Shown: positions 5,631 to 62,705 of the stretch, piece after piece
Position numbering within the stretch: the stretch's first letter is position 1
Layout: every line of letters starts with the position of its first letter
NCBI GenBank assembly: GCA_947561395.2
Contig: OX387182.1
Span: forward strand, 40,851,949-40,915,948
Length of the DNA: 64,000 nucleotides
From: Buxus sempervirens
Taxonomy: Eukaryota; Streptophyta; Magnoliopsida; Buxales; Buxaceae
Direction: 5' to 3'
Notes under the pieces: generated by a model
The model's input: the letters and a program-made list of their open reading frames with translations, nothing else
Databases searched by the model: none
What the model was told of the DNA's origin: nothing
Translations under genes and position numbers: made by a program

Positions 5631-8600
5631 TCAGGAAAAGGGCATTCCACTAATGGAGTTTTTTTTTGGAAGCCATGTCTGTTTGCCAAACAAACGCAGC
5701 TTCAAAAGTAGGGGAGTTTCCTCCCAATTGTTCAGAATAAAAGAATCTGGGGCAGGGATATAAGGCTGCTCCTCAAGCTCAGGGTCTGCATCTGAAATCA
5801 CCAGTACTAGGTGAGTTCCATCGCCTGCTTCTTCTGTAGGGCTGGTCCCTGATGGGACTTCTACTGCAGCCCAATCAATGAAAGGTAGCTCCTCTGCTCC
5901 TTCTTCTTGGTTGCCTTCAGTCATGGCAAAAAAGGCTCCTATGTCCTCTGAGAAATCACGCTCCTGTTCTGCCTGTGGCCCAGGCCCACCCAATGCTTGT
6001 GGAGGTGGAGATGGAACATATGGTTGCAAGGTTGAGGACTTGGGTTTCTGGAATGGGTTGATGTTATAGTATGGGGGTTTGGACTGATCCTGGGGAGGAG
6101 ACTGTTGAATCATGTGAGAAAGCTTTGGAAAAGTTTTCCTAATGTGAGGGAATTTCATGTCATCCATCTGCCTCTGTCTTTTCCAATTCCTTGGCTTGGA
6201 CCCCAATCCTGCTCTGTGGATTATCTTCTTAACCTTTACTGGTTCTATCCTTCCTTGCAGGTTAACCCCCAGACCTTTTCCAGGGTGAAAATTATATTTT
6301 TCCAGCACATTCTTGACCATTTTCTCAGCACATGTCAACTTTCCTTCTTTTTCCTGATACCCCCCAGGTATAAAATTCACAGTTTCAAACTGGAAAGAGT
6401 GAAATGCCATCTTGTCAGCAGTCATTTCCATGTTTATGTAGGGTACATCAGGGGACCACATGGGAGGAACCAAATTTTCAGCTAGGACAGTAATCAACTT
6501 TTGCCCTCTAATATATTTGACTCTTTGGTGGAGGGTAGATGGTATAGCCCTAGCTGTATGAATCCACGGCCTTCCTAGGAGTAAGTTGAAGGCTGCAGGT
6601 ATATCCATAACTTCAAATGTGATGTTAAAAATATACGGTCCAATTGTGACCGACAGTTCAACCTCCCCTAGGGAGTGTGTTTTAGAGCTGTCAAATGCTC
6701 TTATGATTCTTCCATTTTGCTTTATTTTGTTTTGCTCCAGACCGAGCTTAACAAATGTTATTAACGAGCAGACATTCAGAGCCAACCTATTATCAATTAA
6801 GACTCGGGCTATCATGCAACCCTTACTGAGTACAGCTATGTGCAAAGGGTCAACATGATGGTACCCTGCTGGGCTGATTTCAGTCTCAGAAAAAGTTATA
6901 ACATTGTGGGATAAAATTTGCCTAACCATCCGGCTTAGTTGGTCTGGTTCAATGTTTTTAGGCACGTGGGCCCCCTGAAGTATCCTTAACAAGGAGTCCC
7001 TATGTTTTTCAGAATTTAACAATAATCCCAGAATTGAGATCTGGGCAGGGACTTTGTTCAACTGCTCGACAATGTTGAACTTACTCTTTTTAATTAACTT
7101 CATGAGGTCAGCAGCCTCACTGTTAGTTACCTGAGGGGCATCTTCCCCTACCTTGGCCTTTCCTTTATTTTTCTCTTCTTCCTTTTCTTTTTTTGTCTCC
7201 TTTTGCTTTTCTTCCACCCCTACACATTTTCCTGACCTCATCATGAGGTTCATTTCTTTCTTGCTTTCTGTTTCAGCTGTAGGGAATGTGGTGGTGTAGC
7301 CTTCACTGTAGTTCCATGGTACAGCCGATTCAGAGTAGGAAGGCTTAGGGACACTTATTACCAAGGGAGGAAGTTTGGACTTGGATGGTGAAATTTGAGT
7401 GAGAGGGATATCAACAACCAATGGTGGACCCTGTTTTGGTTGAGGGGTTGCAGAAGTGATTGATGCATTGAGGTGGTCACAATTTATGACCAGTGGTGGT
7501 TTTGACTGAATGGGTGAAAAATGGGTGGATGGACTGCAATTGATAACCAAAGGCGGCTTTGCAATGTTTAATTGGGCCATGAGGGAGGAGGCCCGGTCCA
7601 AAGCAGAGCTAATGCTCTCAGCAGCACGATCATTTCCTTTTGAAACCATATTTATTTCTGTTTCCTTATTTATTCTGTCAAAATAAACCTTGACCGTTGT
7701 CCCTATAGGAGAAATTAACTGGGATGGGTCAAAAGTTATTTTATCAAAGGAAATTACCCCTATGACATTAACTGGGCCTGCCCCATGATGCTGATGCAAC
7801 GGGTTTTGGCCAATGTTTGCTATGGGAGGATTGGGAGCCCCTGTATTGAAAGACAGGGTATTCTGGTTTAGTAAATCCTGAATGGCATGTTTCAAAGGCC
7901 AGCACTTGTCAGTAGGGTGCCCAGGTGCACCCATGTAGTAATCACAAGTGGTGGAGGGGTCAAAATTTCTCCCCTTGAATGCATTCGGATTGGGTTCTCT
8001 TAAAGTGATATACCCTGCTTGAAATAAAGTGGGAAGCAATTGAGAAGGAGTCATTGGAATAGGGGTGAAAACCCTATTTCTCCTTGCTGCAAAATAGGCA
8101 TCCTTTTCCTCCTTAGTAAAAACCCTTTTTTGGTCTGAAGGTGCTACTGGAACATTAACCCTCATAGGGGCCTGGGTAGATGGAGCAGATGGAGTAGGAA
8201 AATGAGCAGGTATGTTAATTTGCATGGGCTTATTAGGGCCTAACGGTGGCTGCACCATGTTCACTTCCCCTTCTTTCTTGTTCCCATTCTTCTTTATCCC
8301 ACTTCCTTTCTTCACATTGGGGTATTGCTGACTGACCATAGCAGAGTGGTCAATTATTTTACCAGACCTAATTCCGTCTTCGATTCGGTCGGCCACTTGT
8401 ACCAAAGCCGCAAAATTAGTGGTGGTCTGACCCACCAGGTGGCTGTAGAATGGTTGATCCAGCGTACTAATGAAAGTGAAAATCATTTCCTGCTCTAGCA
8501 TGGGTGGTTTGACCTGAGAGGCCGTCTCCCTCCATCTCTTGGCATACTGTCTCATGGATTCGTCTCTAGCCTTACTCATCCTCATTACGTCGTACCTATC

Positions 8601-8915
8601 TAGCACGATTTCTGAATTGAACCGGAATTGAGCTAGGAAGGCATCTGCTAGGTCCTTCCATCTTTTGATCTTCCCATGGTCTAATGTGGCAAACCACCTC
8701 AGAGCCGTTCTAGTTAAGCTCCTTTGAAAGAGCTGAATCAAGGCGCCCTCATCCTGCCCGAACTGGCATAGGGCACCGCAGTACAGCTTCAGATGGCTCA
8801 TGGGGCAGCCAGTGCCGTCATATTTGTCTAGGTCTGGGCATTTGAACTTAGCTGGCAGGTTAACGTTGGGGTACAGGCATAAGTCCTCAAAATTGGTGCC
8901 CCAGAAGTTGTTCAC
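5631..8915 (-). CDS. gag-pro: Element 1 gag-protease polyprotein
   Basis: A 1094-codon stretch. Residues about 15-185 are the retrotransposon gag (capsid-like) domain, with LYCGALCQFG and LRWFATLDHGKIKRWKDLAD. A zinc-knuckle-like segment (YYMGAPGHPTDKCWPLKHA) lies near residue 330. A long Pro/Ser-rich linker follows, then a Lys/Glu-rich segment near 590-620. The aspartic-protease fold lies at about 690-800 (ends LLLGRPWIHTARA), then a G-patch-like segment (YNFHPGKGLGVNLQG) near 875-915, then an acidic linker to RT. The G-patch after protease is typical of this gypsy group. Fossil. Confidence 0.88.
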   Translation of the reverse strand: MNNFWGTNFEDLCLYPNVNLPAKFKCPDLDKYDGTGCPMSHLKLYCGALCQFGQDEGALIQLFQRSLTRTALRWFATLDHGKIKRWKDLADAFLAQFRFNSEIVLDRYDVMRMSKARDESMRQYAKRWRETASQVKPPMLEQEMIFTFISTLDQPFYSHLVGQTTTNFAALVQVADRIEDGIRSGKIIDHSAMVSQQYPNVKKGSGIKKNGNKKEGEVNMVQPPLGPNKPMQINIPAHFPTPSAPSTQAPMRVNVPVAPSDQKRVFTKEEKDAYFAARRNRVFTPIPMTPSQLLPTLFQAGYITLREPNPNAFKGRNFDPSTTCDYYMGAPGHPTDKCWPLKHAIQDLLNQNTLSFNTGAPNPPIANIGQNPLHQHHGAGPVNVIGVISFDKITFDPSQLISPIGTTVKVYFDRINKETEINMVSKGNDRAAESISSALDRASSLMAQLNIAKPPLVINCSPSTHFSPIQSKPPLVINCDHLNASITSATPQPKQGPPLVVDIPLTQISPSKSKLPPLVISVPKPSYSESAVPWNYSEGYTTTFPTAETESKKEMNLMMRSGKCVGVEEKQKETKKEKEEEKNKGKAKVGEDAPQVTNSEAADLMKLIKKSKFNIVEQLNKVPAQISILGLLLNSEKHRDSLLRILQGAHVPKNIEPDQLSRMVRQILSHNVITFSETEISPAGYHHVDPLHIAVLSKGCMIARVLIDNRLALNVCSLITFVKLGLEQNKIKQNGRIIRAFDSSKTHSLGEVELSVTIGPYIFNITFEVMDIPAAFNLLLGRPWIHTARAIPSTLHQRVKYIRGQKLITVLAENLVPPMWSPDVPYINMEMTADKMAFHSFQFETVNFIPGGYQEKEGKLTCAEKMVKNVLEKYNFHPGKGLGVNLQGRIEPVKVKKIIHRAGLGSKPRNWKRQRQMDDMKFPHIRKTFPKLSHMIQQSPPQDQSKPPYYNINPFQKPKSSTLQPYVPSPPPQALGGPGPQAEQERDFSEDIGAFFAMTEGNQEEGAEELPFIDWAAVEVPSGTSPTEEAGDGTHLVLVISDADPELEEQPYIPAPDSFILNNWEETPLLLKLRLFGKQTWLPKKNSISGMPFS

Positions 8916-9059
8916 CCCTTTTACTTATCTCAGTTCGTCTTGGATCATTTCAAGTCTGTGCATGAACTTCCTTTCAACTTCTTCCCTCATCCTTTCCTTT
9001 TCCTTGGCTTTGTCCGATTCCACTGTCTCATCCCTGATCAGTATAGGTTCAGGGGTGGG

Positions 9060-10904: not shown

Positions 10905-11037
10905 TATACACAGTACGGTCCAGCCTTGCCCGTATTCAAATTACGAGCGAGCCGTGACCGTATGGAAAATATGGGCGAACCCAGCCCGTATAACTAATAC
11001 GGACGAGCCCAGCCCGTGTATCAAATGCAGTTTTACG
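10905..11037. repeat. Cluster of CCGTAT/ATACGG palindromic words in element 1 leader
   Basis: In about 130 bases there are several opposed words: CCGTATACACAGTACGG, GCCCGTATTCAAATTACG, CCGTATGGAAAATATGGGC and CCCGTATAACTAATACGG. Each forms a short imperfect dyad with a 5-8 base AT-rich centre. Comparable clusters occur in the LTR of the same element (13825-13945) and in element 2. No protein is known to me that binds this word. Confidence 0.75.
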
Positions 11038-12250: not shown

Positions 12251-14037
12251 TGTGAGACATGGAAAAAATCAAATCCAATGACTTCCTCAATCATCACGCG
12301 GGATTAAATTAAACAAAGAGTTGCCACCATTCAATTTAGGTGTGAATGGACACGAAAATATTAAATAAGCTCAAAAAGGCAATTTTAGGGTAAAAATAAC
12401 CCTTCTAAAAAACAACCAGAGATGGGTAAGGGGATTAGGTTATGAACAGGGGAAGGTGTTAGACACCCCTATTCATCCACACAAGGTGGTTGGCAGGTAT
12501 TGTTCATGTTTTTCAAAGAAAAAAGGCTTGCTATAAAACTCATGAAAAAGCACAAGAAAGACAAAAATATATGGTTTTTTCATACGAATAGTCTGATTGA
12601 TCCAGAACTTTCAAATATGATCATACCATTCCTAGGGTTTCATGATTAAAATAAAATTGAGATAAAATGAATTTAAAGTTAAAAATCCAAAAATCTGGCT
12701 TCAAGTCAAATTCTAGAAATCTAGAAAAATATGATTTTTAAAAAATATTGCAGATTTGAACTTGAATAATCCAGGACATAAGTATAGCCCAAATTTCACA
12801 TTAAATCAAAAAATCAAAACCAAAAATACCCATGTTGATGAAGAACATCAAAAGGGGAGAACTTAGACCGTAGGGTCTTCTCTCAAAATTGGAAAACAAC
12901 TCAAAAACCACATCATGAAACCCTAGAGGTTACTTTCAGGCTTCTAGATCCAGATTTACCATATTGATCATGATAAATCCAGGATCTTAGCCTAAAATCA
13001 CAAAAATCACGAAAACAGTGCTGTAGGTGCAAATATTTGGAAAATCCAAATTTTATCAAAAAAGTGGGGATCTCATGCTATAAACATCATGGATTCATGT
13101 TATTCATTCAGATTCATCATAAAAACAATTAAAACATGATCAGGATATTCAAAGCAGCCACATCTCACAGATTAGAGCACATGGGGGTCTACCCTACGGA
13201 TCCACCTGTTCTCTTTTCCCCTAGCTCTCTTTTCACGTTTTATGGCTAGAGAGGATTCTTGAGGTACTTAGAGATAGGTTTGGTGATACAAACACAATCA
13301 CAGGCTTTAAAGGAGAAAAACAGATATGGGGTCCTATTCTAGGGATTCACCTGTTCTCTTTTCCCCTAGCTCTTTCTTCACGTTTTAGGGCTAGAGAGAC
13401 TCTTGAGGTACTTAGAGGCAAGTTTAGGAATACAAGTACAAAAGATGGCCTTATTCTACAAAAAAAGAGAAAATCCTATTTCTTCTAGAATTGAAGACAG
13501 AAAATAACAGGGAAAAGGGACTTACTTGGATTGAGCAAGCAGGGTAGCAGGGATTCCTCTCTTCTCTTGGAGCTTCTTAGACTTTAAATTTTCATGGCCT
13601 TTTGCTTGAGGAAAGGCCCTCTATTTATAGGCAAACACAGGGGTATGGTTGGTCCAAGGTTTGGCAAGATAGAGTTTCAGATTGAGTTAAACACAAGGAT
13701 AATGCCAATCCTTTGTCTACAAAGATATTTCGCACGAATAAAATATATAATTCGCTCATTTAAAGGGATATTGGACTAAAGAAAAGGCTCAGAAATCGAG
13801 AGAAGAACAAAACTCGCACGAGTCGGATGTGCCCGTAAATGATTTACTATCCAAAGGTGTCCGTATATGTATTACGGGCACTGCGTGCCTGTATATAAAA
13901 TTCAGGCGCGCTTAGCCCATAGATACAATACGGGCAAGGCTCTAATTATTCATTTTCATGCATTTTTGGCCTGTTTTAAATTCCAATTAATGTTTTCATT
14001 ATTTTCTCATTTTGTAGTGCAATTTGGGGTGTCTACA
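12251..14037 (-). mobile_element. 5' LTR of element 1 (1787 bp)
   Basis: On the minus strand it begins TGTAGACACCCC and ends CTCACA next to the PBS. A TATA box (GCCTATAAATAGAGGG) lies at about 13615-13630. Just upstream of it in the element's sense (13825-13945) is a cluster of CCCGTAT/ATACGGGC dyads. About 140 bases are tandemly duplicated (13170-13310 and 13345-13445 region, both with CACCTGTTCTCTTTTCCCCT). Element 2 has this block once, which partly explains its shorter LTR. Confidence 0.85.
13615..13630 (-). promoter_or_regulatory. TATA box in element 1 LTR
   Basis: The minus strand reads GCCTATAAATAGAGGG, a strong plant TATA context. The identical core GCCTATAAATAGAG is at about 21958-21972 in the element 2 LTR, at the matching place. 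Confidence 0.7.
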
Positions 14038-19204: not shown

Positions 19205-19370
19205 TTTTGAATGTATCCGACATAATATGTCGGATAAGGCTATGTCTTATTGTATCCGACGAAGTATGTCGAATACACGCATAGGTTTTTGTAACCGATA
19301 ATATATGCCGGATATGAATGCAATTCTTCTTAACCGACCTGAGTTGTCGATTAAGGCCGAAATGGCCCTT
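19205..19370. repeat. GTATCCGAC palindromic dyads in element 2 leader
   Basis: Successive imperfect dyads are ATCCGACATAATATGTCGGAT (truncated here to the arms ATCCGACAT/ATGTCGGAT), TCCGACGAAGTATGTCGAA, ACCGATAATATATGCCGGAT and ACCGACCTGAGTTGTCGAT. They lie where element 1 has its CCGTAT cluster, but the core word is different. This is plain inverted symmetry with 3-8 base centres. Confidence 0.75.
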
Positions 19371-21254: not shown

Positions 21255-22389
21255 TGTAAGACTTGGGAAAAATCACCGGGATGATTCCCCTCCGTCAACA
21301 CACAGGCTCAACGTAAAAATGGGAGAGTCGCCACCATTCAGATTTTGGGTGTGAATGGACACCAAAAGATTCAAAAATAATCACAAGAGTTAAAAGACAA
21401 ATTCTAGAGTAAAAATAACTCTACTTGAAAATCAAATCCAGAGATGGGTAAGGGGATTAGATTATGAACAGGGGAAGATGTTAGGTACCCCCATTCACCC
21501 ACACAAGGTGGTTGCCAAGTGTTTGTTCATGCAAAAAAGATAAGAAAGCTTGCTAAAAATCATTAAAAACCTTGAAAAAGGACAAATGTATGATATCTTC
21601 ACATGAAGATCTAAATGGATTCCAGATCCTCTTTTATGTCAATATCATTTCTGGAACATCACCAATAATGGGGTTTTATTCTAGGGATCCACCTGTTCCC
21701 CTTTCCCCTAGCTTTCTCTTCACGTTTTACGGCTAGAGAGAATTCTTGAGGTACTTGGAGGCAGGTTTAGGAATACAAGATAAAAGAAGGCCTTATTCTT
21801 CAGCAATGGAGAAGATCAGATTACTTATAGAATTGAAGACAGAAAATAAAAGGGAAAATGGACTTACTTGGATTGAGCAATCAGAGTAGCAGGGATTCCT
21901 CTCTTCACTTGGAGCTCCTTAGACTTCAAAATTTCGTGGTCATTTGCTTGAGAATCTGCTCTCTATTTATAGGCAAACCCAGGGGCATAGTTGGTCCAGA
22001 GGGATATACCAAGATCTTCCAAATTGAATTAAAAATAGGGATAATGCCAATCCATTGCCAAATAAGATAAATAAGAGAATTCGAATGGATAAATAAGAGA
22101 ATTCGCATATCCCAGAGAGATATTTGGATGCAGATAAGGCTCATAAATCAAAAAAGGATAAATTCGTACAAAAACCCCCATGCCCGTATATATACTACGG
22201 TCGCGCCCTGCCCGTATTATTAATACGGGCACGCCGTGCCCGTATATCAACTGCGGTCATGACCAAACCGTAAACAAAATACGGGCATGACCAGTTTGGC
22301 CAGAATTTACACTTTTTTGACCTGTTTCAAATCTCAATTAATATTTTCAATTATTTTCTCATTTTGTAGTGCAATTTGGGGTGTCTACA
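21255..22389 (-). mobile_element. 5' LTR of element 2 (1135 bp)
   Basis: On the minus strand it begins TGTAGACACCCC, as in element 1, and ends CTTACA by the PBS. It has a TATA box (GCCTATAAATAGAG) at about 21958-21972. A cluster of GCCCGTAT/ATACGGGC dyads lies at 22185-22290, just upstream of TATA in element sense; one is GCCCGTATTATTAATACGGGC (21 bases in all, arms GCCCGTATTA/TAATACGGGC). The sequence right of 22389 is copia integrase, which fixes the LTR edge. Confidence 0.85.
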
Positions 22390-36011: not shown

Positions 36012-37190
36012 TGTAAGCACCTTATTTTTGCACCCCTGGAAATGCTGAAAATGAAGACCCTGGTGGAAAAGTCAAACCCCGAGGGGACAAAAAGTTGACT
36101 TTTTTATCAAGTGATAATTGACCACCTTGCTCTATCTCATTGGATAGAGAATCCCGACACGGTTCCAATGCAACTGAGTTTGCTGGAATCAGAATCCGGA
36201 TAAAGGTTCTGCAGGCTGGTCAAACTTGAGGGAGAGCCTAAAGTTGACTTTCTGCTAAACCTCGATCCATGTGCTTCCCCCCATGCCATTGGATAGAGGG
36301 CTTCGATACGATTCTAACGCAATTGAGTTTGCCCAAATCGGAGTCCAGATAGGGAAAATATGAGTTGTCAAAGTTTCCAAGCGGCAAAACCGACAAACAG
36401 CACACGTGGCAGAGAGCTGCACACGTGGCAAGTGGCGCAGGAAAATATCTCGGGGATCAAGTCCGTAAATATCAAAGCATTCAAAAGATCCTAGGGACCA
36501 ATCTGAAAATGTCTGAAAATATCTAAATAAAATAATATTTTCTCAAAATATCCTAGGGACTAAATCTTAATTTTCAGATTTTTCGAACAAATCCGCGGTT
36601 GAATTAAATGTTTTAGTCATTTTGTTGCTCGCGCCGAGCGACAGCTACTCGGTGCGAGCTCGGCGCAAAACCCGGCGGATACCCAATTCTTCCCCTATAA
36701 ATACAGTAGCCTCATTCTTGTTCGAGGTTCAGCTTTTTTTTTGGGGGCTTCTTGCTGGTTGGCTTTTTCCTTGTTGGGGGCTTTCTTTGGTGTTGGTTCT
36801 TCCCACGGAGATCTCGTCTTCCCCACACCTTGCTTGGTTTGAAGCCTTCCTCCTCACCTCTCTTGGCTTCCACAAACAACCACCCCACTTCACTTGAAAC
36901 CCTTTCCACCCTTGGTTGCTCTCTTCCTCTTCTTCCTCGACAAACCAGAAGGAGATCGCGCTGTTGGTGGGGGAGAGGTGCTGCTCCGGCGGCGGCTTGT
37001 ACACTCCAAGGACGCCTCACACAGACTCTACGAAGGTTTAGAACCTCAAGGTGAGCTCTCTTTGTCAATTTGTTTAACATATATAAATCGGGGCTTGTTC
37101 AGAGAATCAACTCCATCGAGCATGCTCCCCTTTCTTTTCTAGTGCATTATTTGCTATTCTTGCTTGTTTGATTCGAGGTGGGAGCATGTA

Positions 37191-37227
<37 letters not shown>

Positions 37228-38805
37228 TTCCCTTCGTCATTAGCTGCGTTCATTCTTCGGTTTTCAGATTTGGGTGTTTGCTAGGAGATCTTGAGTTGTG
37301 ATATAGAGTAGCTTAAATTAATTTCGAGTTATGTTCGAAGGTCTTCCGGGAGTCTGAGGAATGCCGGGAAGGTGTTACAGAGACTGGAAATCAAGCCAGT
37401 CTTTGAGTTTAAAAAAAAAACAGAGAGTCGCGTTTCGTAAAGTGGGTGCGCTGAGCTCGCGCCTCGCTCATGCAGGGCGTTTTTGCGCCCGCCGAGCTCG
37501 CGCGTGGATGTATTTTTTGCCGTTTTGGTCGCGCTGACCTCGCGCCCAGCGCCCGGAGGTCAGCGCACCCCCTTTTTAATGCCATGTTGCTTGTATTTTT
37601 TAAAACCCGAAACTACCCTTATACTGTACCGCGGCCCAACCCCTTTGTTCACCGCGCGTCCAACTCATTCCTTGGTGCGGGAAGGGACCTCACCCCGTGG
37701 GCTTCGCTTCGCTCCGCCCACAGGGGCCTCAGGTCCCTCCCCTTGGACCCAGGGTATGTGATTGGTTGATTTTCGTAATTTCTGTGATTTTGCTAGCTGT
37801 GGGTGATATTTTCAAACAGAACCAAATAAACCAATAGGGTTTCTGGGTCACCTGGAAACCCAACATGGGACTTAGACCACCCGGTTTAACTTGATTTCCA
37901 GTGGGCCTTCCAACGGGGCCCACCCTGCTCAAACCATCCAATTATGCTTAAATAAGATAATTAAAAAGAATTGAGTGGGCCAAAGCCACTGGAGGCCCAC
38001 CAAAGCCCAGCTTGGGGCATGCATGTTTAATTTAAGATTGTGGTTTGGCCAAGACCAAGGGCGGGGCCTGTCAGGCCCACCAAGCCCACTCACTAAATAA
38101 AATTAGGGTTTCTAAACCCTAACTCAGGAAGTCTTGGGCTTTCAAGCCCAAGCCCAAGTAAAGGGCCTCAAGCCCAAGGCCTGGCCCATTTTTGAAACTT
38201 AATCAAGGTAAATCCAATAAACCACTTGGCTACCATGTGTGGCCCACCCAATGGGCCCATGAACCAAACCGACCCACTTTGGCATGAAAATCCGCTTGAA
38301 TAATCAAACTTGAATTTCAAGATAAAACCAACTCATTGAACCAAAGCCCAAAGGGCCTTGCAGGCTTAGACCGAGGCCCTCCAAGGGAACATGTGGGCCA
38401 CACTTGGCCCACCAAGGGATCCATGGGCCCTCCAACGGTGCCCACCCAATCAGACTCACTTCAATTTAAGCTAAGAAGATAAAATCAAGTAAAGGGACTC
38501 ACACTGCTTTGGCGGTCCCGCAAGACTTAACCAAATTAAATGCTGGAATAGGAATCGGGTGAGTGAGAGACCAAAGTTGACTCAAACCAGGGAAACCTAT
38601 GGGACCCGTCATTTGACGGGGCGGACTGGGGTGTCTACAGACTTCCCCGGATCGTAACCAAGAACTTGCTTAGAATCTCAAAGCCACAGACCAAGCCTTA
38701 ATAGACAAACTTAGGCACCCAGGTGTCCGCCTGCACCCCATCAGGTGGTGGCGACTCCAATTTCCCATTTTTACCCAATGCGACACCCGAAGTCAGGCGC
38801 GCACA
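36012..38805 (+). mobile_element. Solo LTR A (2794 bp), long-LTR gypsy family
   Basis: It runs from TGTAAGCACC to GGCGCGCACA with an exact target duplication AAGGT (36007-36011 and 38806-38810), inside copia element 6. Inner landmarks: ~145-bp tandem units with GGATAGAGAATCCCGACACG (36120-36340), twin ABRE/G-box ACACGTGGC (36402-36410, 36421-36429), GC-rich dyads (36633-36680), TATA (36695-36703), donor-like CTCAAG|GTGAGC (37050/37051), 29 C's (37193-37221), GC-rich dyads (37440-37565), GGCCCA-rich part (37880-38480), inverted telobox (38102-38122) and an internal PBS-like TGGCGACTCC (38749-38758). No coding region. Confidence 0.9.
36402..36429 (+). promoter_or_regulatory. Twin ABRE/G-box in LTR A
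   Basis: Two exact ACACGTGGC sites 19 bases apart (36402-36410, 36421-36429), about 270 bases upstream of TATA. This matches the plant ABRE core PyACGTGGC bound by ABF/ABI5-type bZIP factors. Equivalent sites are at 45197-45224 (B), 57644-57671 (C1), 58063-58071 (C2, one site) and 55278-55305 (D, minus strand). Confidence 0.75.
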
Positions 38806-45154: not shown

Positions 45155-47878
45155 ATGAGCTGACAAAATTCCCGAGCAGCAAAACCGGCAAACTGTGCAC
45201 GTGGCAAAAAGCTGCACACGTGGCAAGTTGCGCAGGAAAATATCTCGGGGATCAAATCCGTAAATATCCAAACATTCAAAAGATCCTAGGGACCCATCTG
45301 AAAATATTTGAAAATATCTGAATAAATTAATATTACCAAAATATCCCAGGGACTATATCTTAATTTTCGGATTTTTTAAGCAAACCCGCAGCGGCATTAA
45401 ATGATTTAATCATTTTGTTGCTCGCACCGAGCGACAAGAGCTCGGCGCGAGCTGGGTGCCAAACTCGGCGGATCCCCCTGTCTTCATCTATAAAAGCCGC
45501 AACCTCCTTCATTGCTGGGGGTTGGGATTTTCGGGGTTGGTCATTTGAGGGTTTGCTGTTCTTCAGCATTCAAAGGTTGGAGATTTTTTCTGTGGTTGGG
45601 ATTTTCGGGGTTGGTCATTTGAGGGTTTGCTGTTCTTCGGCATTCAAAGGTTGGAGATTTTTTCTGTGGTTGGGATTTTCGAAGTTGGTCATTTGAGGGT
45701 TTGCTGTTCTTCGGCATTCAAAGGTTGGAGATTTTTTCTGTGGTTGGGCATTTTCTGGGGTTGGGCATTTGATGGTTGGGAGCTTTTCGGTTGATCATTT
45801 TAAGCTTCTTCTTCGGCATTCGAAGGTGGTCTGGGCTACCATCTTCCCCAAAGAAAAAAAACCAGACACTTGGCATCTCCCTTCCTCTCCTTCCTTGACG
45901 AATCCGAAGGAGGTCGTGCTCTTGGTGTGAGAAGAAGGAGGCTCCGGCAGCAGCTCGTGAGCTCCAGGGAACCCTCCGGCTTGCTCTGTAAAGGTTTGGA
46001 ACCAAGGTGATTCTCTCTCTGTTATTGTTTTAACATGTAGAAATTGAGCATGTTTTCCATCTCAGCATGTTATTTTTATGTTCTGGTTTGATTGATTCGA
46101 AGGGGGAGCATGTTCCCCCATGAGTTCTCCCTCTCTGTTGTATCCCGATAAAGCCCCCAGTTCCTTCCTTGTATGTTCTGTTAGTGTTTGGGTGTTCGGA
46201 CTTGTAGGTTTTCAAGGAGGTTTGATCCTCATAACTTAGGTTAGATTAATTTCCAATGGTGTTTAGAGGTCTTTTGCGGTTCTAAGGAACCCAAAGAGTG
46301 ATTACAGAGGTTAAAAAACCCTAAAAACCAGTCGGAAATGGAGCCTGAAAAGAAAAAGCAGAGAATCAGGGTATGTGCTGAGCTCGCGCTCACCTATTTT
46401 GGGTCCACCCACTTCGCGCCGAGTTCGTGCTCACCTCGCGCCGAGCTCGGGCTCACTTAGTCTTGGGTTCGCCCACTTCGCGCCGAGCTCGCGCTCACTT
46501 GGCGCCGAGCCCACGCCCACTTCTTCTTGGGTGCACTGAGCTCGCACCCACTTCTTTTTGGTGTGCTGAGCTCGTGCCCACTTCACTTTTGGGTCCGCCC
46601 ACTTCTCCTGCGGATGTTTTTTTTTCGTTTTTTCGGTCCGCCCACCTCGCCGACCTTGCGCCTAGTGTTTGAGGTCGGCGCATACCCCTAAAAAAGGCCG
46701 AATTGCCATATTTTTGAAAAATCCCAAAAATGCCCTTTACCATACCGCGGGGGGTGAAGCCCCCCGCACCCCCAACCCCGTTGTTCGCCGCGCGTCCAAC
46801 TTGTTCCTTGATACGGGTACCTCCCCTTGGACTCAGCATAGTGAGCCGGTCTCTTCTGGGTAAATGTTAGTTTTCTGCATATTCTGTAAATTTTGCTACA
46901 TGTAGATGGTATTTCCAAACCGAACCCAATAAACCAATAGGGTTTCCGGGAACCCAACATGGGACCCAGACCACCTGGTCTGACTTGATTTCCAGTGGGC
47001 CTTCCAACAGGGCCCACTCAGCCCGAACCATTCAATTTTGCTTAACTAATACAATTAAAAGATTTGAGTGGGCCGGACCACTTGAGGCCCACCCAAGCCC
47101 TATGTGGGCCATGCATGCTCAAAGTAGCTTGTGGTTTGGCCGAGACTACGGGCCGGGCCTGTCGGGCCCACCAGGCCCACAACACCAAGCAAGGTTAGGG
47201 TTTCAAAAACCCTAACGCAGGAAGTCTTGGGCTTTCAAGCCCAAGCCCAGGTAAAGGGCCCCAAGCCCAAGGCCTGGCCCGTTTTTGGAAACCTAAGCAA
47301 GATAAACTCAATGAATCACTTGGCTACCATTGTGTGGCCCACTCAGGGGCCCGTAAAGCAATCCAGCCCGCTTTGCATGAAAATAACTTACTAACCCAAC
47401 TTGAACTTCAAAATAAAATCAAGTCAAATTGAACCAAAGCCCAAAGGGCCACACTTGGCCTACCAAGGGATACTGTGGGCCTTCCAACGGGGCCCACCCT
47501 ACCAGACCCAGATCATTCTAACTAAAGAAGATAAAACCAAGTAAAGGGACCCACACCACTTTGGCGGTCCCACCAGACTTAAACAAGTGTGCATGCTGGA
47601 ATAGGAATCGGGTGAGTGAGAGACCAAAGTTGACTCAAACCAGGGAAACCATGGGACCCGTCTTTTGACAGGGCGGACCGGGGTGTCTACGGACTTCCCC
47701 GGACCATAACCAAGAACTTGCTTAGAATCTCAAGCTGCAGACCAAGCCTTAGTAGACAAAAACTTAGGCACCCAGATATCTGCCTGCACCCCATCAAGCA
47801 GTGGCGACTCCAAACAAATCCTGAGGCACGCATCGTTTTGCGTGTGCCTCGTCGTGCGGCCGAAATCAGGCGCGCACA
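45155..47878 (+). mobile_element. LTR B of the long-LTR family, 5'-truncated, followed by PBS
   Basis: It starts within the LTR (ATGAGCTGAC-type sequence just before the ABRE pair) and runs to GGCGCGCACA at 47878. Landmarks: ABRE/G-box at 45197-45205 and 45216-45224, GC-rich dyads (45420-45475), TATA (45489-45495), a ~78-bp unit in three tandem copies (about 45522-45750; TGGTTGGGATTTTCGGGGTT), donor-like ACCAAG|GTGATT (46005/46006), GAGCTCGCGC modules (46380-46600), GGCCCA-rich part with inverted telobox (47195-47216), and internal PBS-like TGGCGACTCC (47802-47811). A second TGGCGACTC lies just outside the end, at 47882-47890. Confidence 0.85.
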
Positions 47879-51721: not shown

Positions 51722-54700
51722 TTTGCGCACCCGATTTCGGTCGCACGACGAGGCGCACGCAAAACGATGCGTGCCTCGGGATTGTTTGGAGTCGCCACTG
51801 CCTGATGGGGTGCTGGCAGACACCTGGGTGCCTAAGTTCTTCTACTAAGGCTTGGTCTGCGGCTTGAGATTCTAAGTAGGTTTTCGGTTGCGGTCTGGGA
51901 AGTCCGTAGACACCCCAGTCCACCCCGTCAAGTGACGGGTCCCATAGGTTTCCCTGGTTTGAGTCAACTCAGTTGGTCTCTCACTCACCCGATTCCTAAT
52001 CCAGCATTCAATTTTGGTTTAAGTCTGGCGGGACCGCCAAAGTGGTGTGGGTCCCTTTTCTTGATTTTATCTTTTTAATTAAAGTGATGTGGGTCTGATT
52101 GGGTGGGCCCTGTTGGAAGGCCCGCGGATTCCTTGGTGGGCTTGGTTGAGCCCACATGTCCCTTGGTGGGCCTCAGTCTAAACCTGAGAGGCCCTTTGGG
52201 CTTTGCTTCAAGTGAATTGATTTTATTTAAATTCTAGTTTGATTATTTAAGTGATTTCTATGCACAAGTAGGCCGGGACTGCTTGTGGGCCCGTGAGTGG
52301 GCCACATAATTGGTTGCAAAGTGGTTTTGATTATCTTTCTTATCTGTGCCAAAATGGGCCAAGCATTGGGCTTGGGGCCCTTTACTTGGGCTTGGGTTTG
52401 AAAGCCCAAGACTTCTTGAGTTAGGGTTTTGAAACCGTAACCTTAGTTGGTTAATGGGCTTGGTGGGCCCGATAGGCCCTGCCCTTTGCCTTGGCCAAAC
52501 CATGCATAAATATGATCAACATGCTTCAAAAATGGGCTTTGGTGGGCCTCAATGGGTTCGGCCCACTCAATTGATTTGATTGTCTTCATTTAGCAAAAAA
52601 TGGGTTTGTCGGGCTTGGTGGGCCCCGTTGGAAGGCCCACCGGAAATCATTTTGGACCGGGTCGGTCCATGGCCCATCTTGGGTTCCCGGGTGACCCAGA
52701 AACCCTACTGATTCGACTGGTTTGATCAAATAAAGCAAAAAAAAACAGCACAAGATCATAAAACAGCAAAAAAACATTCTGGCAGCGTAACCGGCCTAAG
52801 ATGCCGGTTACACACAGGGTTCTATGTATCCGGCATCTTTAGCCGGCTACACATGGGTTTCAGTTGATCCGGCCTGAGTTGCCGGATCAACTCACAGAAG
52901 CCTTTTTCTTGGATTTTTGTATTGGGGTTGGGTTTTTAGGCTCCTTGGGGTGTTCCAGGAATGGTGTGGGCCCCTGTGTGGGCCCCCAGTGGTTCGAATA
53001 GAACCAACTGGCTTCTCTTTTTCTTGGGGTTTCAAGACCAAATACCAAGGGAAATGGGTGGGGGTTTCCCCCCTCCGATCCAAATCAAAAGAATGAGTAG
53101 GGATTTGGATATCCCTACTTTAGTTTCTTTGCTAAAAAAAGAAACAAACTCTTATTGTACATGGGAGAATATCATACCAAGAAATGCATTTTTTAGTTAA
53201 AATTTAACTAAACAATAAAGTAGACCATAAAAACCAAAGCTAGATTTCCATGCATACATGCTTTGCTAGATAGTGCCATGCTTAAAGCCACTAGACATGT
53301 TCCTAATACATGAGGGAACAAACATGCTTATGAAAAGTGTGTGAAGCTACATGGAGTGGCTTCATGTGATAAATAAAAAATCAGCAGCTAACATGAAACA
53401 AAACCTTGGTATAGCATGTAAAAACAATCAATAAAACATCCTTTTTCCATGATCCTAAAAGTAAGGAATAACATGTAACTCACTTTGATGGGCATATTTC
53501 ACATCAATATATATATGTGTGAGCGTGTTTATTCGTGCTTACACAAAAAAAACTAGCAAACAGATTTTATATTCCTCCTTACTCAAATTAGACTATGGTA
53601 CACACAAACACCTAGGCATATTCATAACAAGAGAGGAAATAAGCATTCAAATAGGACATGTACAAAGCCATGTAGTGGTGATTTTATGATGCCAAAATCA
53701 GTAGATAGAGAGAAACAAAAATCATGATGAATCCCATAAAAACAGTAGATAAGGGAGGTGCTTACATGATCCTAAAAAAACAACACTCGAGCTCCAAATG
53801 ATGGTGGATGATAGAGAAATCTCACACACATTTACAACAATGTCTAAATCATATACTAATGAAATTAAAAATGAGATCGAGCATGCTCAATATATTGATT
53901 TTCAACCGTTTATACGAACCTAACATACTTAATCAAAAAGAAAGAAGATCACTTAAAGAAGGGAAGAGAAAGGGGTTTACTCATGGGACACATTAGATGA
54001 AGTGAGAGGAACATGCTCCTCTAGTAAAATGAAAGAGAACATAACAATATTACTAGAGAAAAAAAACAGCAACCCTACAATACTTTTAAAGCCAATCCTA
54101 AAGAAAAAGTCCCTTCTTCCCTTTTGCTCAAACGAAAATCTTACCTTTAAAGGGCAATTGCTCTTGTATTATCATGAAAAGAGATGGCAAAAAGAGAGAA
54201 AAATGCACACAAAATTCACAATAGAAATATTTCCATATGCATGAGACCTTACATGCTTCAATCTATCTCATGTTCACCTATGTTAAACAAAAGGTGGTAG
54301 GGGGCTCACCTTGGGGACTTATATCCTTGGGGGCTGGGTGTGAAGCTTCCTTGGAGCCAGGCAAGGGCTGGAGTAGCTTCCTTCTTGCACCAACAGCAGC
54401 TGCTCCTCTCTTGTTTGAATGGGAGAATGGAGAAGAAGAGGTGAACAAAGGGGTGGAGCAACCTCAAGGTGGTATGGGGGGTTGCAAGAGAGTTGAAGGG
54501 AAGAGAGGATTTTGGGAGGGGACGAATGGGAGAGTGGTGGGAGAGATGGGAGCCAAAGCAAAAATGAGCTCCACCCCAAATGAGAGAACCTTGCTACGTA
54601 TGGGATTGGGAGGGCTTTTATCATGTGGTCATGTGAATGTGCATGCATGCATGGGGGAGAGAGAAAGAGAGAGAGAGAGATGAGATGCATGCATGGATGC

Positions 54701-55693
54701 TCATGGGGGCGGGGGAGAGAGAGAAAGAGAGATGAGATGCATGCATGGATGCTCATGAGGGGGAGAGAGAGAGAGAGATGCATGATGCTATGATGCATGA
54801 TGCATGGGGGGTGCATGCATAGGGAACATTAATCATTAGGGGGAGAGAGAGAAAAAGTATGCATGATGCATGCATGTATGATGGTGATGGTGCCCATGTG
54901 GGAGAGAGAGGGAGAGAGAGATGTATGAGGGGTGGCATGCATGGATGATGCCCATGCATGCCCATAGGGGACATCAATCATGATCAAATCCTAATATTTA
55001 TGGATTGGTCCCTGGAACTTTGGATTTTTACAAATTTAGTCCCTGATACCTTTGGACATTTACAGATTTAGTCCTTGATATTTTTTATATTTACAGATTT
55101 AGTCCCTGATACTTTTGGATATTTACAGATTGGTCCATGGGGTATTTTCTCAAGTTTTGATACTTATGGATCTAGTCCTTGATACCCATAGATATCTGCA
55201 GCTTTACCCTTGAGATACTTTTCATTGATTTGGGTAATTACAGATTTAATCCCTGAGACCTTTTTGCTCTACTGCTTGCCACGTGTGCAGACTTTTGCCA
55301 CGTGTGCAGCTTTCTGACACACTGCCCTAGAACTTCAACTGCTTACATCTCCTTCATCCGAACTCCGATTTGAGCAAACTCAGTTGCGTTAGACTCGTAT
55401 CGGAGCCCTCCATCCAATGACATAGGGCTAAGCACTTGGCACGGGGTTCGAGGAAAAGTCAACTTTCGGCTCTCCTTTAAGTTTGACCGGCCCGCAGAAC
55501 CTTCATCCGGACTCCGATTCCAGCAAACTCAGTTGCGTTGGACTCATGTTGGGATTCTCTATCCATTGAGATAAATCAAGGTGGCCAATTATCCCTGGAT
55601 CAAAAAGTCAATTTTTCACCTCTTGGGGTTTGACTTTTTAGCCGGGTTTTGCATTTCCGGCTTTTTCGGGAGCACAAAAATGAGGTGCTTACA
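51722..55693 (-). mobile_element. Solo LTR D (3972 bp), long-LTR family, inside element 3 gag
   Basis: It has an exact target duplication CTGAC (51717-51721 and 55694-55698). Landmarks on the minus strand, from the right: TGTAAGCACC start, tandem GGATAGAG-type units (55330-55600), twin ABRE (GCCACGTGT at 55278-55286 and 55297-55305), tandem 'ggactaaatctgtaaatatc' units (55010-55260), many CATGCATG and GAGA runs (54640-54970), TATA-like CATGATAAAAG (54615-54625), donor-like AAG|GTGAGC (near 54311), CCGGC...GCCGG dyads (52786-52890), GGCCCA-rich part (52090-52660), inverted telobox-like (52421-52441) and internal PBS-like site (51788-51797). No coding region. Confidence 0.9.
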
Positions 55694-57671: not shown

Positions 57672-58415
57672 TGTAAGAACCTCATTTTTGCACCCCCGGA
57701 AATGCCAGAAATGCAAACCCTAGACAGAAAGTCAAAAAACCTTAAGGGGTGAAAAGTTGACTTTTTGATCAAGTGATAATTGGCCACCTTGATTTATCTC
57801 AATGGATAGAGAATCCCGACACGGTTCCAACGCAACTGAGTTTGCTGGAATCGGAGTCCGGATGAAGGATCTATGAGCCGGTCAAACTTGAGGGGGAGCT
57901 GAAAGTTGACTTTCTGCTAAACCCCGAATCAACTACTTAACCCTACACCAATGGATAGAGGACTCCGATACGGTTCTAACGCAACTGAGTTTGCCCAAAT
58001 CGGAGTCTGGATGAAGAAGATGTAAGCAGTTGAAGATCTAGGGCAACGTGCTGGAAAACTGCACACGTGGCAAGCAGCAGAGCAAAAAGGTCCCAGGGAT
58101 TAAATCTGTAATTACCCTAATCAATGAAAAGTATCTCAAGGGTAAAGCTGCAGATACCTAAGGGTATCAGGGACCAGATCCATAAGTATCAAAACTTGAA
58201 CAAATATCCCAGGGACCAATCTGTAAATATCCAAAAGTATCAGGGACTAAATCTGTAAATATAAAAAGTATCAAGGACTAAATCTGTAAATATCCAAAGG
58301 TATCAGGGACTAAATTTGTAAAAATCCAAAGTTCTAGGGACCAATCCACAAATATTAGGATTTACTCATAATTGATGTCCCCTATGGGCATGCATGGGCA
58401 TCATCCATGCATGCA

Positions 58416-58468
<53 letters not shown>

Positions 58469-60939
58469 CCCCCCATGATCATACATCATCATCCATACAT
58501 GCATCCCCTCTTTCTCATGGTTGATGAGCATGCATGTGCATCATACATGCATGCCATCCATCCATAACTCTCTATCTCTCTCTCTCTCCCCCATAATTGT
58601 GTCCCCCGTGCATGCATACACATCACATGCATGCATGCCCATACCACCCCAATATAAAAAGCCCAAGCCCCCATATGTATGGGGGGTTGAGCACATTGTC
58701 TCTCCATGCTTCTTCTTCTCCAAGAGCTCCTACTCCTCTCCCATCTCACCCAAGCTCTCTTCACCTCTCTCAAGCTCTCTTCCATGGCTTCCTAAACCCC
58801 CCACCACCACTTTCCACCACCATTCTCTACCACATCCAAGCAAGGAAGGGAGGAACACTTGCTGTTGCTGCAAGAAGGAAGCTGCTCCAGCCCTCATCTC
58901 TACTCCAAGGAAGCTTCACACCCAGTCCCCAAGGGTATAAGTCCCCAAGGTGAGCTCCTTCCCACCTTTTGTTTAACATAGGTGAACATGAGATAGACTG
59001 GAGCATATAAGGTCTCATGCATATGGAAATATTTCTGTTGTGCATTTGGTGGGCATTATCTCTCTTTTGTCTTCGTTTTTTATGATAATACAAGAGCAAC
59101 TACCCCTTTAAATGGTAAGATTTTCGTTTAAGCAAAAGAGAAGAAGAGGTTTCTTGTTTAGGCTCAATTTTTAAGCACTATGAGGTTGCTGTTTTGCCCT
59201 CTTAATATGGTTATTATTCCCTCATTCAATAGGGGAGTATGTTCCCTTTTTATTCCTATATCATGTACCCCCATGTTAACCCCCCTCTTTCCCTTCTTTA
59301 AATAGGTTTGGTTGGATGTCTTGGTGTTGGTTTTTGAGCATGAGATTAATGATAGGGCTTGTTGGCATGTTTAGGGTAGATTACATGTTTTTTTTTTAGG
59401 TTCATACTCTTTGATGCTTTCATATTAATCCCTTTAAGCTACTTGTAAGTAATATGCATGCTTACCTTTCAACACATGCTCCCTCATGAAGCATGCCCAC
59501 TCACACACACACTTTTGTCCCATGTATAAAAAGCTGTCAAAATGCATGTAGTTTTCATGGTTTAAGAGCATGCATGCTAGGCTTTGTTGATGGATTTGGG
59601 TTGTCCATGTTTGCTTATTGACATGTGGAGTATGAGGAACCAAGACAGGGACACTTAGGTCCCTGTCACAGTGCTGGAACACCCCAAGAGGCTTAAGAAT
59701 CCAAGCCCATAGCAAAAATCCAAAAAAAATAGCTTCTATAGGTTGATCCGGCAACTCAAGCCGGATCAACTGAAACCCATGTGTAGCCGGCTAAAGATGC
59801 CGGATACACAGAACCCCATGTGTAGCCGGCTAAAGATGCCGGATACACAGAACCCTGTGTGTAACCGGCATCTCAGGCCGGCTATACTGCCAGATTGCAT
59901 TTTTGCTAATTTTGTGATATTGTGCTAATTTTCTTGGTTTATTTGAGCAATCCGGATGAACCAGAAGGGACCCGGAAACCCGAGATGGGCCTTGGACACC
60001 CGATCCAATTTGATTCTAGTGGGCCTTCCAACGGGGCCCACTAAGCCCGACCAACATCCTTTTTGTTAAATAAAGGTAATTAAATTGATTGAGTGGGCCA
60101 AACCCGCTGAGGCCCACCAAAGCCCAACTGGGGTAGCATGCATGTCTAGGTCTAGGCATGGTTTGGCCGAGACCAAGGGCAAGGCCTATCGGGCCCACGA
60201 AGCCCATTAACCAACCAACTTAGGGTTTCCAAACCCTAACTCAAGAAGTCTTGGGCTTTCAAGCCCAAGCCCAGGTAAAGGGCCCCAAGCCCAATGCTTG
60301 GCCCATTTTGGCACAGATAAGAAAGATAATCAAAACTACCTGGAAACCAACTGTGTGGCCCACTCAAGGGCCTACGAAGCAACCCGGCCCACCTTTGCAT
60401 GAAATCCACTTAAATAAACAAACTTAAACTTTAAAGTAAAATCAATTCACTTGAACCAAAGCCCAAAGGGCCTCTCAGGCTAGACTGAGGCCCACCAAGG
60501 GACATGTGGGCTCAACCAAGCCCACCAAGGGATCTGTGGGCCTTCCAACGGGGCCAACCCAATTAGACCCACTTCATTCAATAATAAGAAGATAAAATCA
60601 AATAAAGGGACCCACACCTCTTTGGCGATCCCGCCAGACTTAACCGAATTGAATGCTGGATTAGGAATCGGGTGAGTGAGGGACCAACTGAGTTGACTCA
60701 AACCAGGGAAACTTATGGGACCCGTCATTTGACGGGGTGGACTGGGGTGTCTACGGACTTCCCCAGACCGCAACCGAGAACCTACTTAGAATCTCAAGCC
60801 ACAGACCAAGCCTTAATAGACAAACTTAGGCACCCAGGTGTCTGCCTGCACCCCATCAGGCAGTGGCAACTCCAAACAATCCCGAGGCATGCATCGTTTT
60901 GTGTGCGCTTCGTCGTGCGACCGAAATCGGGTGCGCACA
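57672..60939 (+). mobile_element. Solo LTR C2 (3268 bp), nested in LTR C1
   Basis: TGTAAGAACC to GTGCGCACA, with exact target duplication CGTGG (57667-57671 and 60940-60944). Landmarks: tandem units (57780-58010), ABRE (58063-58071), tandem 'agggactaaatctgtaaatatc' units (58145-58340), CATGCATG motifs and CT runs (58388-58640), TATA (58652-58660), donor-like CCCAAG|GTGAGC (58949/58950), CCGGC...GCCGG dyads (59742-59885), GGCCCA-rich part (60000-60560), inverted telobox (60220-60240) and internal PBS-like TGGCAACTCC (60864-60873). No coding region. Confidence 0.92.
58388..58660 (+). promoter_or_regulatory. RY-motif-rich core promoter of LTR C2
   Basis: Several CATGCATG/CATGCA words lie within 270 bases, with (CT)n runs between, ending in the TATA box AATATAAAAAG at 58651-58661. 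RY motifs are bound by B3 factors (ABI3, FUS3, LEC2) of the seed programme, and GA/CT runs by BPC proteins. LTR D has the same arrangement at 54615-54970 on the minus strand. Confidence 0.6.
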
Positions 60940-61111
60940 CGTGGCAGCCAACGCAGCAAAATATCTTGGGGACTAAATTGTAAATATCCAAAATTTGCTA
61001 AAAATCTCAGGGACTAAACCAAAATTCGCAGGAACCAATCCGTAATTGCTTAAAAGTGTCAAATCGGTCGAATCGGTCAAGTCGAGGGGCAAATCCATAA
61101 TTTTTCGATTT

Positions 61112-61356
61112 GTATCCGGCATTTAATGCCGGATACACGTGCCCCTATTCATATCCGGACTCCAAGGCCGGATACAAAGATTTGCTCGGCGAGATTCGCG
61201 CCGATTCTCTGACAAATTCACGGCGGAATTAATTTTTGCAAATTATTATGTTTTGTATCCGGCATTTAATGTCGGATACAAATGAAGCTTAGTGTATCCG
61301 GCCTTGGAGGCCGGATACACATAGGGTATAGTGCATCCGGCCTTCAAGGCCGGATA
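61112..61356. repeat. Five CCGGC/GCCGG dyads upstream of the C1 TATA box
   Basis: Five near-perfect inverted repeats of about 25 bases, with arms GTATCCGGCATT/AATGCCGGATAC or GTATCCGGCCTT/AGGCCGGATAC. They lie at 61112-61136, about 61149-61174, 61256-61280, 61293-61317 and 61332-61356. The last ends 12 bases before the TATA box. A sixth, GC-rich patch (CTCGGCGAGATTCGCGCCGA) lies between the second and third. Confidence 0.88.
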
Positions 61357-62357: not shown

Positions 62358-62705
62358 CTGCTGGGGACAGCAGTAAACCCCCACTGTTTGCTGTTGTCCC
62401 AGCAGGTTGGAAGGCCTAAGCATCCCATCCCCCCCCCCCCCCCCCCCCCCCCCCACCAGCCTAGCCTCTTAACCCACTATCATGCTCCCTAACCCTTTTT
62501 CCATTAACCCAAGTAAGTTGCTGCTGGGGACAGCAGTAAACCCCCACTGTTTGCTGCTGTCCCAGCAGGTTGGAAGGCCTAAGCATCCCCCCCAAGCCTA
62601 GCCTCTTAACCCACTGTCATGCTCCCTAACCCTTTTTCCATTAACCCAAGCAAGTTGCTGCTGGGGACAGCAGTAAACCCCCACTGTTTGCTGCTGTCCC
62701 AGCAG
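62358..62705 (+). repeat. Tandem hairpin array (CTGCTGGGGACAGCAG stems) in LTR C1
   Basis: Three copies of a stem-loop: 5' arm CTGCTGGGGACAGCAG (62358, 62521, 62658), loop TAAACCCCCACTGTTTG, 3' arm CTGCTGTCCCAGCAG (ending 62405, 62568, 62705; the first has one change). Period is 137 bases, or 163 where a poly-C tract is included. Diverged relatives are near 63013, 63314 and 63665. Confidence 0.9.

Follow-up and report, generated by a model that had tools for sequence, protein, structure and literature searches.

Retrotransposons in the window

The window, by which we mean the whole 64-kb stretch of Buxus sempervirens contig OX387182.1 that was analysed, is plant DNA from an assembly of 676.5 Mb and consists mostly of nested LTR retrotransposons. 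Family 1 is represented by element 1, element 2 and a broken third member, all on the minus strand. Family 2 is seen solely as long LTRs, with ends from TGTAAGNACC to about GTGCGCACA. The main elements are:

2065..8924, minus strand: coding region of element 1, with gag, reverse transcriptase, RNase H, a second RNase H-like domain and integrase
36012..38805, plus strand: A, a solo LTR of family 2 inside a Ty1/copia element; target repeat AAGGT
57672..60940, plus strand: D, another family 2 solo LTR, nested in C1 and read by eye; target repeat CGTGG
51723..55693, minus strand: Cm, a family 2 LTR inserted into a family 1 element; ends read by eye

Element 1 has the domain order of Ty3/gypsy elements: gag, then reverse transcriptase, RNase H and the second RNase H-like domain (RVT_3, residues 231–349, between RT_RNaseH and rve), followed by integrase. 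In Ty1/copia elements, integrase precedes reverse transcriptase. A second RNase H-like domain after reverse transcriptase and RNase H is a trait of the Tat/Ogre lineage, and family 1 carries this Tat/Ogre-like trait as judged from its predicted protein. The putative primer-binding site of the family is TGGCGACTC. Between its leader dyads and gag lie long tandem arrays (17485–18926 and 9506–10778) with 76-bp units and 40- to 74-bp units.

No internal coding region was found for family 2, and the copies examined look like solo LTRs. Both LTR ends of A are common to D and Cm, while a further copy, B, lacks the 5′ end. Identical 5-bp flanks border 14 of the 18 family 2 relatives for which both ends were found. 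Family 2 seems to consist of solo LTRs or of a stand-alone TG..CA element (L039–L067 with L010–L038 among the genome copies; A and D in the window). Long poly-C runs occur inside its LTRs (37193–37221, 62429–62454 and, by eye, about 63404–63431). Next to the broken 5′ end of B, the segment 44700–44870 resembles by eye an exon of a plant exostosin-type glycosyltransferase. Outside the described LTRs, two imperfect inverted repeats of 37–38 bp lie close together (24996–25032 and 25112–25149) and are perhaps a small foldback element.

Dyad arrays and their positions

Short inverted repeats occur in the U3 regions, in the transcribed parts of the LTRs and in the leaders of these elements:

61111..61356, plus strand: C1 U3 array, five dyads like TGTATCCGGC-N7-GCCGGATACA centred at 61124, 61163, 61267, 61306 and 61345; TATA at 61369
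13825..13945, minus strand: element 1 U3 array, 28-bp period, GCCCGTAT..ATACGGGC, centres 13925, 13897, 13869 and 13841; TATA at 13629
22181..22290, minus strand: element 2 U3 array, 28-bp period, word GCCCGTAT..ATACGGGC, centres 22276, 22248, 22220 and 22192; TATA at 21971
10905..11037, minus strand: element 1 leader array, 28-bp period, CCGTAT word, about 1.2 kb downstream of the putative primer-binding site; eight relatives (L090–L097)
19205..19370, minus strand: element 2 leader array, 39-bp period, first loop AACTCAG, centres 19342, 19303, 19264 and 19225; twelve relatives (L078–L089)
59742..59885, plus strand: D transcribed array, four units at 39-bp steps, loops aactcaa, taaagat, taaagat and atctcag
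52786..52892, minus strand: Cm transcribed array, three units at 39-bp steps, without the unit duplicated in D
58388..58635, plus strand: RY-type dyads in the D U3, e.g. GCATGCATGG..CCATGCATGC, upstream of TATA at 58653
54778..54962, minus strand: RY-type dyads in the Cm U3, GCATGCATGG/CCATGCATGC-like
36627..36659, plus strand: one long dyad in the A U3, GCTCGCGCCGAG..CTCGGTGCGAGC; TATA at 36696
45420..45452, plus strand: dyad in the B U3, as in A (GCTCGCGCCGAG..CTCGGTGCGAGC)
62364..62700, plus strand: C1 transcribed part, three 37-bp dyads GGGACAGCAGTAAAC..GTTTGCTGCTGTCCC, the first copy with one extra mismatch

We compared nine arrays with 100 dinucleotide shuffles each, scoring periodic dyads of three or four units with periods of 22–45 allowed. 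Seven of the nine beat all 100 shuffles, three at period 28 (13825–13945, 22185–22290 and 10905–11037) and four at period 39 (19205–19370, 52786–52890, 59742–59885 and 61112–61356). Because the units of one array are tandem copies, such shuffles overstate significance, and the recurrence of 28 and 39 across separate arrays is the safer argument. A generic inverted-repeat scan gave no hits at 13825–13945 and 10905–11037, both of which stand out by period alone; such counting is too blunt for the 28-bp arrays, and the periodic-dyad test was used instead.

The same scan places the long U3 dyads of A and B above shuffled sequence (fractions 0.003 and 0.000 of 300), with a second, AT-rich inverted repeat of the B region included in the score. 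By eye, each of these two dyads is one CpG-type change from perfect symmetry, and the changes lie on opposite arms. The initial annotation had also placed dyads in the transcribed parts of A (37440–37565) and B (46380–46600). There the periodic score was equalled by 5/100 and 10/100 shuffles and the scan gave fractions of 1.000 and 0.203 of 300, so that its list stands for the seven periodic arrays and the two long U3 dyads and fails at these two sites. It had overlooked the RY-type dyads of D and Cm and the 37-bp dyads of C1.

The U3 dyads had been described as lying just upstream of TATA. This is true of C1, whose last dyad centre is about 24 bp away, but not of the family 1 arrays, which lie approximately 200–320 bp upstream.

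The 28- and 39-bp units have a common skeleton, CCG-N11-CGG, with CCG at k8–k6 on the left of the dyad centre and CGG at +6 to +8 on the right. The comparison covers 204 distinct 39-bp units chosen by likeness to the arm word and 38 distinct 28-bp units chosen by phase. In the two 39-bp arrays, arm identity is 0.960 and 0.952 against 0.819 and 0.820 for the linkers, a conservation that is partly due to selection, because the units were picked by likeness to the arm word. Loops are conserved at 0.98, as the arms are, in the first and third transcribed units, at 0.84 in the second and at 0.72 in U3. The observed/expected CpG ratio is 0.76–1.74 in 11 of the 13 measured arrays against 0.20–0.58 in the flanks; the exceptions are the CpG-poor D U3 and C1 transcribed arrays, and the Cm U3 is outside the measured set. 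The skeleton is absent from the RY, TTAAG, GAATTC and C1 transcribed words, and by eye the spacer of the A/B dyad is longer; one factor therefore cannot explain all words.

One site, several words

Downstream of its transcribed array, D provided a query for relatives in the window's own genome. From 4,017 first-look candidates, 40 places were scored; one is D itself, and the remaining 39 were retrieved together with about 3.5 kb of upstream sequence. A transcribed array is present in 39/39, as the choice of query favours, with two units in seven, three in 27 and four in five. The U3 site holds differing words: CCGG-type in 17, GAATTC-type in eight, TTAAG-type in eight and RY in three, with three uncalled. 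These calls use fixed expressions composed after inspecting the sequences; L057 is uncalled although two damaged CCGG-type units are present, and the TTAAG word is short and outside the shuffle-tested set. A and B add a fifth word. As the transcribed array is kept while the U3 words differ, the place stays and the word changes, just as the initial annotation had proposed.

The CCGG-type U3 is also constant in geometry. All five units, at steps of 39, 104, 39 and 39, are found in 14 of the 17 copies, and the last dyad centre lies 24–25 bp from TATA in 16, the 17th having no TATA match. The window copy of the C1 U3 array and seven of its nearest relatives are L001–L008. In eight LTRs (L049, L051, L052, L055, L064, L066, L067 and L069), a G-box dyad, GTCCACGTGGC-N7-GCCACGTGGAC or a near variant, lies about 215–225 bp upstream of TATA and 5′ of the arrays.

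Family 1 shows the same behaviour in its leader, where one place holds a 28-bp CCGTAT array in element 1 and a 39-bp TATCCGAC array in element 2. The flank upstream is approximately 75% identical between the two elements, and their alignment ends about 60–80 bp before the arrays, which differ in both word and period.

Exchange of LTR modules

To follow the words along lineages, we used a tree of the 3′ flank with 30 rows, 28 of them labelled with one of the five U3 words. L026 and L037 were dropped for their long branches, and the label of L018 was dropped since L047, which covers that place, has there a family 1-like U3 in the opposite orientation. The five words need 10 changes on this tree, against a possible minimum of four and an average of 13.1 for shuffled labels; only 2/200 shuffles were as low as 10, so the words are also clustered on the tree. 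Its well supported branches force just two changes each for CCGG and RY.

L010 is a CCGG-type LTR that sits inside a 100/100 clade with three RY-type LTRs. In its U3 (L039), about 790 bp match C1 at 82%; its 3′ part corresponds to D, and the intervening stretch to neither. Since C1's own 3′ end lies beyond the window, the source of the 3′ part cannot be named. The suggestion that cassettes are exchanged is supported at the level of LTR modules. Within the window, the middle part of A, with promoter and arrays, does not align with that of D or Cm, apart from one 79-bp stretch shared with D. D has one 39-bp unit more than Cm, an evident tandem duplication. The homology of the element 2 leader array with those of D and Cm is marginal in the window alone, loop identity being reached in 1170/20,000 column shuffles and 115/20,000 random draws.

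The dyads might instead be mobile mini-elements in their own right, with preferred insertion sites in LTRs. Like units do occur in three or more families, and an element can carry them at two places. Their phasing at 28- or 39-bp steps, and the finding that larger LTR modules differ together rather than single units, make this explanation very improbable.

Joint change of the two arms

The initial annotation had suggested that both arms might evolve together. In the window alone, co-variation in the 39-bp class has p = 0.00035 across all units and 0.12 within arrays, where the outer arms give 0.028 and the inner arms 0.88. For the 28-bp class, no unit-level co-variation was found in the window (p = 0.27 and 0.46).

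We then used genome copies. Alignment A1 holds 24 of the 26 listed arrays (L069 and L076, with different units, were left out) and A2 the 23 arrays whose last three units span exactly 78 bp. Co-variation is 0.069 in the transcribed arrays (24, 23 of them distinct) against 0.054 in shuffles (sd 0.004; slid controls at most 0.057), and 0.148 in the 23 U3 arrays against 0.078 (sd 0.007; slid controls at most 0.064), with 0/500 shuffles as high in either case, although related sequences can exceed such shuffles without any structure. Pairs changed on both sides number four against 1.9 expected in the transcribed arrays (13/500 shuffles as high) and eight against 6.0 in U3 (43/500). By the number of pair types, 104/500 and 332/500 shuffles, respectively, were as high. 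Both counts are sturdier to relatedness than the co-variation score. Counting each of the 13 distinct arm types once gives 12/26 against 9.9 expected (4533/20,000), i.e., no significant pairing; this table draws on the first 100 of 11,997 CCGNNAACTCAGNNCGG places, on one contig and partly from repeated segments.

Exact counts across the genome for the k5 pair of the first transcribed unit are G.C 1853, A.T 598, G.T 184 and A.C 56, where independence would give about 592 and 464 of the two mixed forms; these are copies and not events. The whole-genome table covers k5, and the k4 forms TATCCGGC-N7-GCCGGATA, GTATCCGGC-N7-GCCGGATAC and the mixed GTATCCGGT-N7-GCCGGATAC are outside it. At k1 of the third U3 unit, T.A is found in 15 copies, A.T in eight and half-changed forms in none. 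Single-copy changes on both sides occur in L039, L045, L050, L053 and L075, and one group of seven or eight copies has T.A to A.T at k1 and A.T versus C.G at k3. Seen by group, only a few events underlie the double changes in A1 and A2. In the family 1 leaders, the third unit is CCGAC/GTCGG in element 2 and L080 and CCGAT/ATCGG in L082, L084–L087 and L089, while L078, L081 and L088 are half-changed at its k4.

Some copies change on one side only. The left arm is altered at k5 in all three aligned U3 units of L043, L045 and L053 and in two of L060, whereas the right arm is unchanged in 11 of the 12 units considered; of two further L043 units, one has both arms changed. This one-sided pattern is as expected of half-sites made alike among units, not of hairpins.

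The arms thus differ jointly between lineages in the 39-bp class, and nothing of the kind appears in the 28-bp class. The pair-counting measures are weak (in U3, 43 and 332 of 500 shuffles reach them), so much of this joint difference may have come from units copied as a whole and from modules exchanged between LTRs.

Symmetry might also be maintained by mutation alone, if template switching at hairpins during reverse transcription or replication copied one arm to the other and tandem duplication spread the units; no function would be needed. The transversions among the double changes (k1 of the third U3 unit), the extra 39-bp unit of D and the loops found in both orientations would agree with such a process. 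It would not account for arms more conserved than linkers (units partly chosen by likeness), for CpGs kept in CpG-poor LTRs or for the constant TATA spacing, and several related copies (L043, L044, L045, L053 and L060) retain half-changed units. We consider it improbable as the main cause.

RNA folding and the AACTCAG loop

Folding energies are below those of all 200 shuffles in six of the eight arrays folded, with z = −10.8 for the D array, −12.3 for the C1 U3 and −5.0 for the element 2 leader. The transcribed sites of A (z = −1.8, 10/200 shuffles) and B (z = −3.0, 1/200, on 46380–46525) fold less well. Folding alone says little, because palindromes fold well by construction, and Rfam has no match in the window.

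Transcribed arrays have 14 G.T and eight A.C in k4–k8 (first unit, five and one), and the first unit is 99.6% paired over 23 distinct copies when G.U is counted. The U3 cores (k4–k8) have A.C 25, G.T 13 and three others, and k1–k13 has A.C 30, G.T 33 and 37 others; as the core mispairs lean to A.C and the wider range is even, there is no preference for RNA wobble in U3. A mismatch at k9 is kept in the second and third transcribed units (23/23 and 20/23).

The asymmetric loop AACTCAG is conserved at 0.98 in the first transcribed unit. Its word CCGNNAACTCAGNNCGG occurs 11,997 times in the genome, and its backwards control twice. The loop is constant while the arms differ, being TTAACCGAC in most family 1 leaders of the element 2 type, GATCCGGC or GATCCGAC in family 2 and GTATCCGGT in a third family. 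This family is very abundant: the dyad GTATCCGGT-N7-ACCGGATAC, with any loop, is found at 5,920 places in the genome (L098–L103; e.g., G000:C1:4249138-4249255). L098 and L099 have a four-unit 39-bp array whose first loop is AACTCAG, with arms GTATCCGGT/ACCGGATAC.

Loops occur in both orientations: transcribed arrays have aactcag, and U3 has its reverse complement, ctgagtt. In L050, L059, L062, L071 and L074, ctgagtt is the loop of the U3 unit closest to TATA; its match to the leader loop within one LTR is exact in L050, L071 and L074, and L059 and L062 have aactcaa. A second array of the third family (L100 and L101) has ctgacat opposite atgtcag.

These observations allow an explanation in which the units act as transcript hairpins, in the 5′ leader and, through U3, in the 3′ LTR. 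They would serve packaging, dimerisation or translation or, on the side of the host, give rise to small RNAs, and selection would keep the stems paired and the AACUCAG loop fixed. The D array, the C1 U3 and the element 2 leader do fold far below shuffles, the first transcribed unit is almost fully paired with its loop kept while the arms differ, and half-changed first units favour G.T over A.C (184 versus 56), as RNA wobble predicts. One report (PMC10760457, citing a 2016 paper) also describes an excess of small RNAs at the palindrome clusters of maize Sireviruses. On the other hand, the U3 cores have no G.T preference (13 versus A.C 25), the G.T excess may stem from one amplified subfamily (four G.T copies of the 24 aligned share one U3 subtype), the k9 mismatch is kept, Rfam gives no match and palindromes fold well anyway. 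We regard an RNA function as the primary one as rather unlikely, if still the strongest of the alternatives.

In a bolder form, the hairpin CCGNN-AACUCAG-NNCGG, with about 12,000 copies, would be a leader signal of at least three families with compensatory stems. The CUGAGUU loops in U3 of some family 2 lineages, or CUGACAU versus AUGUCAG in the third family if its second array is placed accordingly, could pair leader with U3, circularising or dimerising the genomic RNA. This is an idea to which we give little weight.

The difference between U3 and leader in wobble and loop conservation is most simply explained if U3 units act as DNA and leader units possibly also as RNA.

A cis-regulatory interpretation

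The most likely explanation of these sequence patterns is that the arrays serve Ty3-type LTR retrotransposons as cis-regulatory modules, comparable in kind to the Sirevirus palindromic repeats, with units read as paired DNA half-sites. We give this interpretation about an even chance of being correct. Constant spacing, arms more conserved than linkers, retained CpGs, the fixed TATA distance of the CCGG type, several words per site and the joint difference of the arms all argue for it. The conserved asymmetric loop AACTCAG is not predicted by a plain dimer site with a free spacer.

In the proposed mechanism, the U3 arrays would act as DNA, two CCG half-sites being read by a dimeric protein of the host or the element. 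Bound at the U3 dyads, this protein would activate or protect the promoter. To our knowledge, no plant protein is described as binding CCG-N11-CGG. Turnover would proceed by unit copying within and between arrays together with recombination of LTR modules; both arms would thereby be replaced at once, and lopsided units would be selected against. Units of this kind are also found in the leader arrays, where a second role as RNA hairpin is possible but not needed.

Comparison with known systems

The statement in the initial annotation that no role had been described was too strong, since palindromic repeats upstream of TATA have been published for Sireviruses (Bousios et al. 2010, PMC2829016) and small RNAs have been mapped to them in maize (PMC10760457). 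According to the former, many near-identical palindromes lie in the LTR shortly upstream of TATA, their word differs in most elements, and all but one contain a CGG-CCG core. They form CpG islands, with TATA on average 37 bp after the island; some Sireviruses have a second cluster near env; and the repeats are called Sirevirus-specific, being absent from the classic elements compared there (PMC2829016).

The arrays described here are likewise palindromic repeats clustered upstream of TATA, and 11 of the 13 measured exceed their flanks in CpG ratio, whereas D U3 and the C1 transcribed array do not. The citrus Sirevirus word, AATCCGGCTWRCCGGATT (PMC2829016), resembles our 39-bp word. As to the CGG-CCG core signature, CCGG-type words hold both orders, and the CCGAC and CCGTAT words hold CCG..CGG alone. 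Unlike the Sirevirus repeats, our units carry a CCG-N11-CGG core at 28- or 39-bp steps. Sireviruses have at least eight copies per element; here, five U3 and three transcribed units occur in one LTR in, for example, L039, L043 and L046, with outer arms differing between the sets. The second array lies in the transcribed part of the LTR or in the leader before gag, not near env as in some Sireviruses. Our analysis adds to that description a test of joint arm difference and of word exchange between lineages.

The elements also differ. Sireviruses belong to Ty1/copia, and element 1 has integrase after reverse transcriptase. The reported Sirevirus primer-binding site is TATCAGAGC (PMC2829016), as opposed to the putative TGGCGACTC of family 1; TGGTATCAGAGC occurs once in the window, in an element other than family 1. 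Martin et al. (2023, PMC10760457), who cite the small RNAs at Sirevirus palindromes, report that miRNA-like structure has no obvious peak in the Ty3 elements of maize.

Other retrotransposons share single aspects. One is Tnt1, a Ty1/copia family of Solanaceae. In its superfamily, the U3 regulatory modules diverge faster than the rest and define subfamilies (PMC1838419), a modular U3 evolution like that seen here; the term "palindrom" has no occurrence in that text. Retand elements resemble ours in having family-specific tandem arrays in a Ty3/gypsy non-chromovirus lineage, but these lie between pol and the 3′ LTR, and the available text notes no promoter dyads ("TATA" does not occur, "palindrom" twice; PMC11963269). 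In the open-licence literature, we found no report of such arrays in Ty3/gypsy LTRs.

The arrays thus look like a new form of the Sirevirus-type palindromic array in elements that are not Sireviruses, and promoters built on palindrome arrays may therefore be more widespread than the Sireviruses. As thousands of copies place many words at one site, with arms that differ together, they constitute a natural experiment in which reading as DNA half-sites can be tested against reading as RNA hairpins, as can the question of whether words change when elements evade silencing by small RNAs or come to use another host factor.
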